A DNA stretch of 64,000 nt from Cohaesibacter sp. ES.047 (GTDB lineage Bacteria > Pseudomonadota > Alphaproteobacteria > Rhizobiales > Cohaesibacteraceae), in assembly GCF_900215505.1 (NCBI RefSeq), contig NZ_LT907844.1:2930001-2994000 (forward strand), in the 5' to 3' direction. Every line of letters begins with the position of its first letter. Positions within the stretch are counted from its first letter, which is position 1. Position numbers and translations under genes: made by a program. Under the pieces are notes generated by a model. The model was not told where the DNA came from and ran no database searches. It was given only the letters and a program-made list of their open reading frames with translations. Shown in pieces: positions 55,402 through 59,412 of this stretch.

Positions 55402-56562
55402 ATGGCAATGCGTCGAGGCGCAAATACGAAAAAGCGGGTGGAAGATGTCGATCCTTTCGTCGGCTTTCAGGTCGACCCGGATTTACATGTTGGTCGCCGC
55501 GTGCGTGGGCGCGCAGCCACCTCCAATCAGTCCGGGCGGTTCGAGCCCTATGCGAAGGAACCGGAGGATGACGGCTGGGGCAGTGCTTGGGCGGCCGAAG
55601 ACCTTCCTCCCTTGCGCACCGAAGTGCAGGAGGAAAAGTCGCGCACCATCATCACACGCAACGACTCGCCCGATATACCGTTCGACCGGTCCATCAATCC
55701 CTATCGTGGCTGCGAGCATGGCTGCATCTATTGCTTCGCTCGTCCAACCCACGCCTATATGGGGCTTTCCGCCGGGCTCGACTTTGAAACCAAACTGTTT
55801 GCCAAGCCCGATGCCGCCGAACAGTTGCGTCGCGAGCTGTCGAAGCCCGGCTATCGACCGCGCCCCATCGCCATCGGCACCAATACGGATCCCTATCAGC
55901 CCATCGAACGGCAATATCGCTTGATGAGTGATCTGCTCGACGTGCTGGATGAATTCGGCCACCCCGTCGGGATCGTGACCAAGTCGGCCCTCATTCTCAG
56001 GGATCTTGATAAGCTCAAGCGTCTCAACGAGCGCAATCTGGTCAAGGTGGCCTTGTCCGTGACCTCTCTCGATCACAAGCTGTCGCGGGCGCTCGAACCC
56101 CGGGCTTCAAGTCCGAAAAGGCGCCTGGAGGCCATCCGGGGGCTGGCTGACGCGGGCATCCCAACCTCGGTAATGATTGCACCGGTCATCCCTGCGCTCA
56201 ACGATAGTGAATTGGAAGCGATTCTCAAGGCGGCATACGAGGCAGGAGCGCGGGAAGCCGGGACGATCCTGTTGCGGCTGCCCGGTGAAGTCAGCCCGTT
56301 GTTTCAGGATTGGCTCGTCAAGAATTACCCCGACCGATACCGCCATGTCATGAATGTGTTGCGTTCGATGCGCAACGGCAAGGACTACGATAGCCGTTCC
56401 GGCATGCGGATGCGGGGCAGTGGACCCTTTGCCGAGATCCTTCACAAGCGTATGGATGTAGCCTGTCGCGCACTCGGCTATGCCACGCGCAAGACACGGC
56501 TGTCCCTTCAGCATTTCACGCAGCCCAAGAGCGAGGTGGCCCAGCTCTCGCTGTTCGACTAG
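55402..56562 (+). CDS. PA0069-family radical SAM protein
   Basis: The 386-residue protein has the radical SAM cluster CX3CX2C as 'NPYRGCEHGCIYCFARPTHA' with the preceding conserved 'SPDIPFDRSINPYRGC' (SPL-like). 'AIGTNTDPYQPIER' and 'VTKSALILRD' are typical of the family. These proteins resemble spore photoproduct lyase in fold. The chemistry in non-sporeformers is not established; nucleic-acid repair or tRNA modification are guesses in the literature. It stands alone in orientation with the downstream small RNA unit. Confidence 0.93.
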   Translation: MAMRRGANTKKRVEDVDPFVGFQVDPDLHVGRRVRGRAATSNQSGRFEPYAKEPEDDGWGSAWAAEDLPPLRTEVQEEKSRTIITRNDSPDIPFDRSINPYRGCEHGCIYCFARPTHAYMGLSAGLDFETKLFAKPDAAEQLRRELSKPGYRPRPIAIGTNTDPYQPIERQYRLMSDLLDVLDEFGHPVGIVTKSALILRDLDKLKRLNERNLVKVALSVTSLDHKLSRALEPRASSPKRRLEAIRGLADAGIPTSVMIAPVIPALNDSELEAILKAAYEAGAREAGTILLRLPGEVSPLFQDWLVKNYPDRYRHVMNVLRSMRNGKDYDSRSGMRMRGSGPFAEILHKRMDVACRALGYATRKTRLSLQHFTQPKSEVAQLSLFD

Positions 56563-56648: not shown

Positions 56649-56677
56649 TTGACAAGTATTAATCAAAACTATATAGA
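56649..56677 (+). promoter_or_regulatory. Strong sigma-70-like promoter
   Basis: A perfect -35 'ttgaca' (56649-56654) is separated by 17 bases from -10 'tatagaa' (56672-56677). It is the best consensus promoter found in the window, with predicted start near 56684. No ORF with a ribosome binding site lies nearby. Confidence 0.6.
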
Positions 56678-56683
56678 ACACTC

Positions 56684-56890
56684 GGATTTTTGCTTGTCGA
56701 TCGCTGTTTGGACTCAATGACCATAGCTTTTGAACAGCTATTCTTTTGACGAAGCATGGGCTTTAAACGTCTTGGCAGGAACTCGCCGCATCGTTCCTGC
56801 CGCGCGGCAAAGGTGGCCTTCCGTTTGCTGCGCACTCTACTGCCCCGTTTCGGTATCGTCACTGATACCGGAACGGGGCAGTATTTTTTT
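56684..56890 (+). ncRNA. Candidate small RNA (orphan transcription unit)
   Basis: The unit of about 205 nt runs from the consensus promoter to a very strong terminator: a 19-bp stem 'actgccccgtttcggtatc' (56839-56857; one G-U pair) with a 6-nt loop and a T run to 56890. An internal hairpin ('ggcaggaac'/'gttcctgcc', 56773-56800) precedes it. The only ORFs inside are a 10-codon one at 56718 and a 46-codon one at 56758 that reads through the terminator; neither has a convincing ribosome binding site. A trans-acting small RNA is the simplest reading. No known family is recognised. Confidence 0.5.
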
Positions 56891-57234
56891 AGTTAGCCAG
56901 TATTCTTTAAAAATACATGCCTGATGGGGCAGGCCTCCTCAGCCAGAACATGAGAACCATAGCCTTGCGGGGACAAGCGTGCGGATCTCGATCCGCGCTG
57001 AAGACTGGTGCGGAACGCGCGCCTGCCAAGTAACCCACACCCAATTTGCTCAGCTCTTTCACAAAAGTGTGGCAAAGACTACCCTTAGGCAGGTGCACCT
57101 TCTTGATTCGTGGGTTGACCTGTAAATTGGCGATATTCAGGCCAAAAAATGGACCTGAAGCGAAACCTTGACTTGCTGGTATGGGCCCAGTCAGGTCCCG
57201 CAGAACAAGAACGGTTCGTCCCAAAAGGGACAGT
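56891..57234. other. Upstream region of the EAL gene
   Basis: These 344 bases contain no supported gene. They should include the EAL gene promoter; none is evident. Confidence 0.45.
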
Positions 57235-59412
57235 ATGAGTGGAGTTGAGAACATGCAAAGGCTTGGGGCTGTTTTTATCGCCGTTTGTATGGTCGCCATT
57301 TCCACGTCTGTCGGAGCCATCTTTCACTATAGTTTCGGCCTTTCGATCCCGGAAGCCTCCCCGATTGCCTTTGGTATCCTTCTTACCCTATTGCTGATCC
57401 ACTATCAGATTTCCCGTGTTCGGGACCGGATGATGCTCGATGAGCAGATGGATGATCTTACCCGCCTGAAGCTGGGACTGACAAAAGAGCTGCAGGATGT
57501 GCGGGAGATGGCCCGACAGCTCGACGAGGATGTTGCGAAACGGGTGCGCGATGAGATTGAGCCCCTTCTGTCCGAATTGGATGTCATCGGAACCATCGTC
57601 AAGCAACTGGCAGAAACCTGCGCGGAGTTGGATGAACGCGTGCAAACCGGCGAGGGGCAGGTGGATGATGTCCGCGAGCAGCTTTCCTCCGCGACCCAGT
57701 CGGTCATGGCATTGGAACAGATGCTCCGGGCCAACGCCCGTGCCCTGTCCAACCGAACGCCCCGCGCCGAAGCAGCCCCGCGCAGAGACCCCGCCCCGCG
57801 CCCTGTTGCATCCGAACCGCAATGGGCCGACGAGCCGCCATTGAGGGAGCCAATCGCTCCCGAGCGCCCGGTCTATGAGACTGCTGCGGAGTATGATCAT
57901 CAACCCCTCGGCTATGATGAGTACGAGGAAGCATCCGCTCCGGAAGCGGCAGACGAGTGGCCGCCGGAGTTTGAAGAGCCGGGACAGGCTCGGCAGCCTT
58001 CGATCAGCGAGGAAGATGAGGCAGCCGTCAGACGCGCTCTGGCGCTTGGCAAGATCGAACTGTTCATGCAGCCCATCGTCACCCTGCCGATGCGCAAACC
58101 GCAATATTACGAAGCATTGACCCGTCTCAAGACCGAGGACGGTGGTCTCATCACGCCAGATGTTTTCCTGCCTGTATGTCGTGATGGCAATTTCATGCCA
58201 ATGTTGGACCGGATGGCCATGAACGAGGCTTTCCGGCTTCTGCGTCGTCTGACAGATCGGGGCCGGGCGGTTGATATCTTCTGCAATCTGTCGATCCAGA
58301 GCCTTGGTGACAGTGATTTCTTTGCGCTTATGCGCGATCTGTTCGAGCAGAATCAGGATCTCGCCGAACATGTCATTCTTGAATTCCGTCAAGCCGACTT
58401 GCGCAATTTTGGCATTCTCGAAGACGAGACGCTGCAATTGCTGCGCTCCATGGGCTTCCGCTTCTCGGTTGACCAGATCACCAATCTGGGTACGGATTTT
58501 GATGCCTTCGCGCGCAAGGGCATCCGCTTTGCAAAGGTTGCCGCACCCATTCTGACCAACAAGGATGCCGGGCGCGGACTGGATATTCATCCGGTCGATT
58601 TCTCGCGCGTGCTGTCGCGCAAGGGCGTTGAGCTCATCGTCACCCATGTGGCCAATGAGAGCATGCTGGTTAGCTTGGTCGAGTTCAACGTCCATCTAGC
58701 CCAAGGCGATCACTTTGCACCCGCCAAGGCGCTCAAGGGCGCAGGAAACGGCGGGCAGGGCGGCGTTGCCTCCAGCCAATCCAATGAGGCGACGAGCACC
58801 CGGGCAACACCTCAGCAATCGTCGCCAAGGCGCATCGCTCCCGGCCCACTTCAGGGTGGCCATCCTCAGGGACAAGCAGCGCAGGGACAATCTGGCCCAC
58901 AATCAACGAATGGTCAGCCCCAACGCGCGACCCCTCCAGCAGTTGATCGTCCCACCGGCCAGACCGCACCTGCCGCTGCAACAAACGGGGCCGTCGCGAA
59001 CGGAGCGGCTTCGACCAACCGCAGTCTGGGAGAAAACCCGCGCATTGCGAAAGCCTTGCGTGCGCTGGCGTCTGGGGATGGCGAGGACAGCGACACCCGG
59101 ACGCAATTCCGCGCCGTATTGGCCGAGGCCGCGGGGCTGTTGGAAAACTCCGAATCCCGCACCAATGCCCGTATTGACGCGGCAACAGCGGCCTCGAGTG
59201 CCAGATCCGCTGCTCCCGAAGTCTCCACCCGTTTGTCCGATCGTCTTCCTGCCGCTGACGAATTTGGCCTGAACACCGGACCAGAGCGCGGCCAGTTCAT
59301 TGATCTCAGCGAACCGGCAGCACCTCAGTCCGAGGCAGCGCGCCCCCGCAGGACTGCCTCCAGCGATGGGGCCGGGCCAGAGGCCGCCCGTTTCGAGCGC
59401 CTCATCCGATAG
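57235..59412 (+). CDS. Membrane-anchored degenerate EAL-domain protein
   Basis: EAL domains hydrolyse or sense cyclic di-GMP. The 725-residue protein has two membrane segments (about 10-55), a coiled coil (about 60-165), a Pro/Glu-rich linker, an EAL domain (about 260-500) and a Gln/Pro/Ala-rich tail. The 'YEALTRL' motif is present (E293) and 'FCNLSIQS' supplies Asn. The 'DDFG' metal motif reads 'VDQIT' (D413-Q414), and the 'AEGVE' Glu is missing ('VTHVANESML'). Catalysis is therefore doubtful and a c-di-GMP-binding or scaffold role is more likely. The ATG at 57235 follows 'aaaggg'; 57253 is an alternative. A TIGR01459 gene follows. Confidence 0.85.
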   Translation: MSGVENMQRLGAVFIAVCMVAISTSVGAIFHYSFGLSIPEASPIAFGILLTLLLIHYQISRVRDRMMLDEQMDDLTRLKLGLTKELQDVREMARQLDEDVAKRVRDEIEPLLSELDVIGTIVKQLAETCAELDERVQTGEGQVDDVREQLSSATQSVMALEQMLRANARALSNRTPRAEAAPRRDPAPRPVASEPQWADEPPLREPIAPERPVYETAAEYDHQPLGYDEYEEASAPEAADEWPPEFEEPGQARQPSISEEDEAAVRRALALGKIELFMQPIVTLPMRKPQYYEALTRLKTEDGGLITPDVFLPVCRDGNFMPMLDRMAMNEAFRLLRRLTDRGRAVDIFCNLSIQSLGDSDFFALMRDLFEQNQDLAEHVILEFRQADLRNFGILEDETLQLLRSMGFRFSVDQITNLGTDFDAFARKGIRFAKVAAPILTNKDAGRGLDIHPVDFSRVLSRKGVELIVTHVANESMLVSLVEFNVHLAQGDHFAPAKALKGAGNGGQGGVASSQSNEATSTRATPQQSSPRRIAPGPLQGGHPQGQAAQGQSGPQSTNGQPQRATPPAVDRPTGQTAPAAATNGAVANGAASTNRSLGENPRIAKALRALASGDGEDSDTRTQFRAVLAEAAGLLENSESRTNARIDAATAASSARSAAPEVSTRLSDRLPAADEFGLNTGPERGQFIDLSEPAAPQSEAARPRRTASSDGAGPEAARFERLIR

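Follow-up and report, generated by a model that had tools for sequence, protein, structure and literature searches.

A conserved three-hairpin RNA in one Cohaesibacter clade, probably a diverged EcpR1-like small RNA

The unit at positions 56649-56890 of the window, as we call the whole stretch of 64,000 nucleotides analysed here, which comes from a single-contig genome of 5.11 Mb, is a conserved, structured RNA of three hairpins limited to one clade of Cohaesibacter. Judging from its loops and layout, it appears to be an extra, diverged EcpR1-like RNA that is missed by Rfam's model. EcpR1 (also SmelC291 or Sra33; Rfam RF02500, Atu_C6) is a trans-acting small RNA of the Rhizobiales by which related bacteria slow their cell cycle when stressed; it is, to our knowledge, one of a small number of sRNAs for which an action on core cell-cycle genes has been demonstrated. 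We assign a probability of about 0.65 to the explanation as a whole, namely that the unit is a second, remodelled EcpR1-like trans-acting sRNA gene which was gained once and acts on cell-cycle mRNAs. A rebuilt second EcpR1 that keeps little beyond the loops would be a natural experiment on which parts of the molecule matter; such a diverged copy can be overlooked by a library of covariance models, and one gain in one clade would make it testable how a duplicated riboregulator acquires a new input. The unit and its neighbours are laid out as follows.

55402..56562, plus strand: upstream gene for a PA0069 family radical SAM protein (NCBIfam NF033668, 536 bits, cut-off 360)
56649..56677, plus strand: promoter-like site TTGACA-N17-TATAGA, 10 of 12 consensus letters, with a counterpart at a similar distance in G016; predicted -35 element TTGACA at 56649-56654, predicted -10 element TATAGA at 56672-56677, spacer of 17 nt
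56684..56772, plus strand: predicted 5' leader, hardly conserved in alignments of the upstream region; the start at 56684 is a prediction
56774..56801, plus strand: hairpin 1 (SL1-like), 9 bp, loop of 10 nt at 56783-56792, UCGCCGCAUC
56802..56833, plus strand: hairpin 2 (SL2-like), 10 bp, loop of 12 nt at 56812-56823, GGUGGCCUUCCG
56838..56890, plus strand: intrinsic terminator, 20 counted pairs at 56838-56883, then T7 at 56884-56890
57181..59412 (start not fixed), plus strand: downstream gene for an EAL-domain protein (PF00563, 120 bits)

Conservation and structure of the RNA

The first-pass annotation had placed a promoter and a terminator around some 205 nt, and both are confirmed, the promoter with 10 of 12 letters and the terminator as a strong intrinsic one. 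The terminator has the stem and T run that were described, save that the stem counts 20 pairs rather than 19; the internal 9-bp hairpin is present as well, but the second conserved hairpin, directly behind the first in the window RNA, had gone unmentioned. The RNA predicted for 56684-56890 folds with an energy of -91.2 kcal/mol (z -7.1), and 0 of 200 shuffles are as stable. Within the 210 nt upstream of hairpin 1 the promoter-like site is the sole match with at least 10 of 12 letters; it is missing from the list of a simple promoter scanner because that program demands T as the last letter of the -10 element. Taken alone, a promoter of this quality is not rare, since a site with 10 letters also arises in 160 of 5000 shuffles of this stretch that preserve its dinucleotides, and across the 64-kb window such sites number two on the plus and three on the minus strand. 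At its other end (1-2859) the window holds a partial 23S rRNA gene and then a 5S rRNA, both ordinary.

Both its conservation and its covariation argue strongly that the unit is a noncoding RNA. A blastn search for the core across 61 genomes led to 12 further Cohaesibacter genomes, and a covariance model built from the 13 blastn-derived copies with EcpR1 left out (R1) then added G015. Together the two methods find the core in 14 of 18 Cohaesibacter genomes; C. marisflavi, C. haloalkalitolerans and C. celericrescens are among the species whose loci carry the same RNA. All 14 copies have the PA0069-type radical-SAM gene on one side and the TipF-like EAL gene on the other. In a MAFFT alignment of 14 rows (13 distinct), 99.1% of the cells at stem positions pair. 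Two-sided changes are seen in 12 of 27 pairs; shuffles average 3.9, none of 500 reaching 12, and slid versions of the structure have 0 to 4. Hairpin 1 pairs in 100% of cells with two-sided changes in 2 of 8 alignment pairs, hairpin 2 in 97.7% with such changes in 8 of 10, and the outer stem of the terminator is retained in the 14 orthologs. Loop 1 is nearly invariant across the 14 copies while the stem of hairpin 2 varies.

The absence of a supported open reading frame from the 205 nt is likewise borne out. We reject the 46-codon frame (56756-56896) as a gene and regard a small protein encoded by it as exceedingly improbable: its core is free of stop codons in 10 of 14 orthologs, but an in-frame upstream start codon is kept in only 6 of the 14, two of them ATG, the variable columns are spread evenly over the codon positions (6/5/5 in 63 nt of seven orthologs), the frame is displaced between clades by an indel of one base in hairpin 2, and the stems show compensatory changes.

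When R1 was run against 397 genomes of the order and 385 of the class, matches outside Cohaesibacter came from one other genus only, under strict filters with which EcpR1 itself likewise went unreported. These matches, in eight genomes, were rejected as copies, since their likeness is terminator-like and they hold no CGCCGCATC. The same eight loci (L035-L042) share near 1500-1620 an RNA-like stretch, GCGUCUGAUCAGGCCCCCCGUC followed by a terminator, which R1 matches weakly; four of them were run against Rfam and gave no match, and the stretch is possibly an undescribed small RNA. Among the weak R1 matches within Cohaesibacter, four of five inspected places were discarded as having no loop 1, and L113 (E 0.175) was discarded as having a GCCGCATC loop on a different stem, perhaps within a reading frame, and no hairpin 2. 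The pattern of hairpin 1 occurs at 54 loci of the genome collection, three of them from Cohaesibacter; we judge the remaining 51 to be chance occurrences because of their low R1 scores and the absence of the hairpin 2 loop. TGGCNTNCC occurs within 45 nt 3' of the pattern at 0 of these 51 (TGGCYT at one) and close behind it at two of the three Cohaesibacter loci, L077 being the exception.

Likeness to EcpR1

In EcpR1 as described in PMC4414408, the SL1 loop reads UCCGCCGCAUCU, SL2 combines a variable stem with a UCCUCG loop, the terminator comes next, and the SL1 region C16-G36 is invariant across the published homologs; identical loops are given in PMC3927594. The gene lies downstream of divK-pleD, and its product uses loop 1 to repress gcrA and dnaA, independently of Hfq (PMC4414408). 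The window RNA carries loops with the same cores: CGCCGCAUC on a CAGG/CCUG stem in hairpin 1, GUGGCCUUCC in hairpin 2, and an intrinsic terminator thereafter. The core CGCCGCAUC is found in 13 of the 14 copies (L034 has GCCGCAUC), with outer loop letters that differ from EcpR1; loop 2 resembles GUGGC(U/C)U(U/C)CC in most copies, the exact UCCUCG is absent, and stem 2 is variable. The letters of the SL1 stem beside the loop also differ from those of EcpR1, the outer SL1 stem is absent, and the locus is that between the radical-SAM and EAL genes rather than that of pleD and rpmG.

At its gathering thresholds Rfam assigns no family to the window RNA. RF02500 (cut-off 60 bits) gave no match at E up to 10 to three of the 14 copies (the window RNA, L002 and L012), and the rows that Rfam does return for the window RNA at E up to 10 were dismissed as low-scoring and terminator-like (RF02501, Atu_C7, scores 10.3 bits where 45 are required). 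The 6S model RF00013 does not match it either; this genome has its 6S RNA elsewhere, at C1:1312783-1312944. A model of EcpR1 (R2) detects only three of the 14 copies, with E values between 0.15 and 1.4, and misses the window copy, its best match in the window (E 0.057) lying elsewhere.

Because EcpR1 adjoins rpmG, the L33 (rpmG) regions of 29 genomes were examined. EcpR1 is present in 19, in 18 by its loop sequence and in L148 by the model, and order-wide its loop 1 is CAGGUCCGCCGCAUCUCCUG and its loop 2 mostly GAGUGGCCUCCUC. The RF02500 gathering threshold is passed in 15 of 26 regions (the 29 less L163, L171 and L173). A normal EcpR1 passes it in all four Cohaesibacter genomes tried, two with the window RNA and two without it (G000, which is the window genome, and G009, G010 and G017), and also in G018 of the same family. 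The best NCBIfam match of the gene beside EcpR1 in the window genome is PleD (345.6 bits versus 474, in a frame truncated at the edge of the locus). L148:1195-1304 is an EcpR1 that is normal by Rfam (82.7 bits) and has the loop CGCCGCAAC instead of CGCCGCAUC. R1, in which EcpR1 had no part, gave 25 matches in the 29 regions at E up to 10. EcpR1 accounts for 16 of them, which lie at its position in 16 of the 19 regions that hold it. The five best are all EcpR1 (E 1.2e-5 to 0.0024), and the best of the nine that lie off it has E 0.0048.

From these features of sequence we consider it very probable that the window RNA is related to EcpR1. It is probably an EcpR1-like, diverged duplicate; on a strict reading of the Rfam test it is no member of the family. 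The statement of the first-pass annotation that no known family is recognised is not supported, the cores of both loops being those of EcpR1; it is understandable, since the RNA fails Rfam's EcpR1 model. A structured RNA unrelated to EcpR1, whose loops came to look the same by coincidence or because both converged on the same targets, would explain why neither Rfam nor R2 links the two, and the likeness was noticed after the fact, through the literature. We hold this to be unlikely, as the nine-letter core of loop 1, its CAGG/CCUG base, the core of loop 2, the order of the parts and the terminator all match EcpR1. In the open-access literature no paper pairs Cohaesibacter with a small RNA, and among the matches listed for EcpR1 and paralogs no title concerned a second EcpR1 copy.

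Origin and expression

The description of the unit as an orphan is not supported either, as it sits just behind the radical-SAM gene, at its 3' end. It ends at what looks like the old terminator of that gene. The terminator scan lists no other on the plus strand between the radical-SAM stop codon and 56838, and the radical-SAM mRNA may read on to the terminator of the RNA. The four species without the RNA (G005, whose genome is only 64% complete, G008, G010 and G017) retain both neighbouring genes and have a terminator soon past the radical-SAM stop codon, with hairpins 1 and 2 absent; the sequence of this terminator is close to that of the window RNA in three of the four and less so in G017. 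A laxer R1 scan found a weak match on it in G010 (E 0.125) and, in G008, a match elsewhere (E 0.004) to a sequence devoid of loop 1. The tree built from the radical-SAM protein groups the 14 RNA-bearing species in one clade (100/99), with the four others as its sister group (82/78). Either the RNA was gained once or the sister group lost it once, and a gain is the simpler picture because the RNA is absent from G018, G019 and every other genome scanned. An origin from phage was considered and dropped, the 3 kb around the site having matched none of 50,697 phage records.

RNAs of the CpxQ type derive from 3' UTRs and are released by processing, and the window RNA might similarly be the 3' end of the radical-SAM mRNA, in which case its action on targets could be unchanged. 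Consistent with this, the RNA ends at a terminator such as hairpin-less species have directly past the radical-SAM gene, no further terminator is listed between the two, and a 10/12 promoter occurs only in the window genome and G016, the other 12 orthologs reaching 8 or 9 of 12 at best. Against it, G016 keeps the promoter at a similar distance although the surrounding sequence has drifted, and six other orthologs have a perfect TTAA-N7-TTAA, with varying middle letters, 161-164 nt upstream of hairpin 1. Release by processing is less likely than not, and in the window genome and its nearest relative, G016, the RNA is probably transcribed from its own promoter. The CtrA site of S. meliloti is given as TAA-N7-TTAAC (PMC3616915). 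The window genome has no TTAA-N7-TTAA box ahead of the RNA, and the regulatory input of the RNA may differ between lineages. In one subclade (L007, L009, L010 and L011) a terminator-like CCGG hairpin with a T run lies about 25-45 nt upstream of hairpin 1, and FNR-like boxes were seen by eye upstream of the RNA in a few orthologs.

The constancy of the EAL neighbour in all 14 loci would also suit a cis-acting leader or attenuator of that gene. This is very unlikely: the start of the EAL gene is at least about 290 nt past the terminator, no alternative fold opposing the terminator was seen, and the gene has its own upstream block, conserved in 18 species including the four without the RNA. The block (57030-57180 and its counterparts) ends in TTGATTCG/ATGATTCG. 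Just upstream of it a TTAA-N7-TTAA is perfect in five species, one letter off in 11 and absent from two (the window genome and G016), and the EAL gene, whose best NCBIfam match is TipF (NF051880, 196 bits, below the cut-off of 600), looks as if it were controlled by CtrA.

Candidate targets and relation to known systems

EcpR1 of S. meliloti binds gcrA at -109 to -95 (PMC4414408). In the gcrA leaders of ten genomes of the family (seven of the 14 with the RNA, two of the four without, and G018), UGCGGC stands 108-112 nt upstream of the start in all ten while the rest of the leader varies; as three of these genomes have no window RNA, the site supports the loop and not the window copy. A second loop-complementary GCGG near -48 (L177-L186) is present in all seven RNA-bearing genomes and in none of the three others, which amounts to one event, the RNA-bearing clade being one branch. 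For dnaA a complementary stretch lies past the likely start codon in most genomes and is weak in G015, G017 and G018. Shuffles as good as the gcrA sites number 0 to 19 of 300, and as the dnaA sites 0 to 99 of 300. The specificity of the predicted pairing appears moderate, because among 54 genes of the window four have a site as strong as that of gcrA and one as strong as that of dnaA. Exact complements of the loop number 47 in the genome; the plus-strand subset read (16 of 30 retrieved) all fall in frames of at least 176 codons and are therefore uninformative. On inspection by eye, six bases of loop 2 can pair with GGAGGC ahead of gcrA, as anti-Shine-Dalgarno loops generally can. Kissing between the two loops (GCCG with UGGC) found no support, as the inner pairs hardly vary and are broken in L034.

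In the explanation that we favour, a single gain in the ancestor of the 14 species would have set the unit between the radical-SAM gene and its terminator, where it would be transcribed; loop 1 would act as the EcpR1 loop does, by pairing with GC-rich complementary sites in mRNAs of the cell cycle, foremost those of gcrA and dnaA; loop 2, complementary to ribosome-binding sites of the GGAGGC type, may assist; and the outcome would be repression of gcrA- and dnaA-type mRNAs under an input different from that of the normal EcpR1 copy. For the function taken by itself, a trans-acting riboregulator that uses the EcpR1 loop on cell-cycle mRNAs, we would give even odds. It is a rather speculative extension that a cell-cycle sRNA was duplicated and rewired, with one copy at the diguanylate-cyclase gene pleD and the other, bearing the same seed loop, at the TipF-like phosphodiesterase gene under other control, and that the RNA copy and the -48 target in gcrA co-evolved; the other control would be that of the CtrA-type box ahead of the RNA in six of 14 species.

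MicX is a small RNA of a 3' UTR region that has its own promoter and uses the terminator of the mRNA (PMC9438474). Like RNAs of this type, the window RNA lies behind a stop codon, apparently uses the terminator of the gene, and in the window genome has a predicted promoter between stop codon and RNA; unlike them, it has a clear promoter in only two of 14 orthologs. With EcpR1 it shares the order of hairpin 1, hairpin 2 and terminator, the nine-letter core of loop 1 on CAGG/CCUG, GUGGCCU in loop 2, a variable stem 2 and a c-di-GMP gene nearby, pleD in the one case and the EAL gene in the other. It departs from EcpR1 in having no outer SL1 stem, an inner SL1 stem of 8-9 bp rather than about 4-6, a shorter SL2, another locus and a score below the Rfam threshold, and in being confined to a Cohaesibacter clade that also holds a normal EcpR1.
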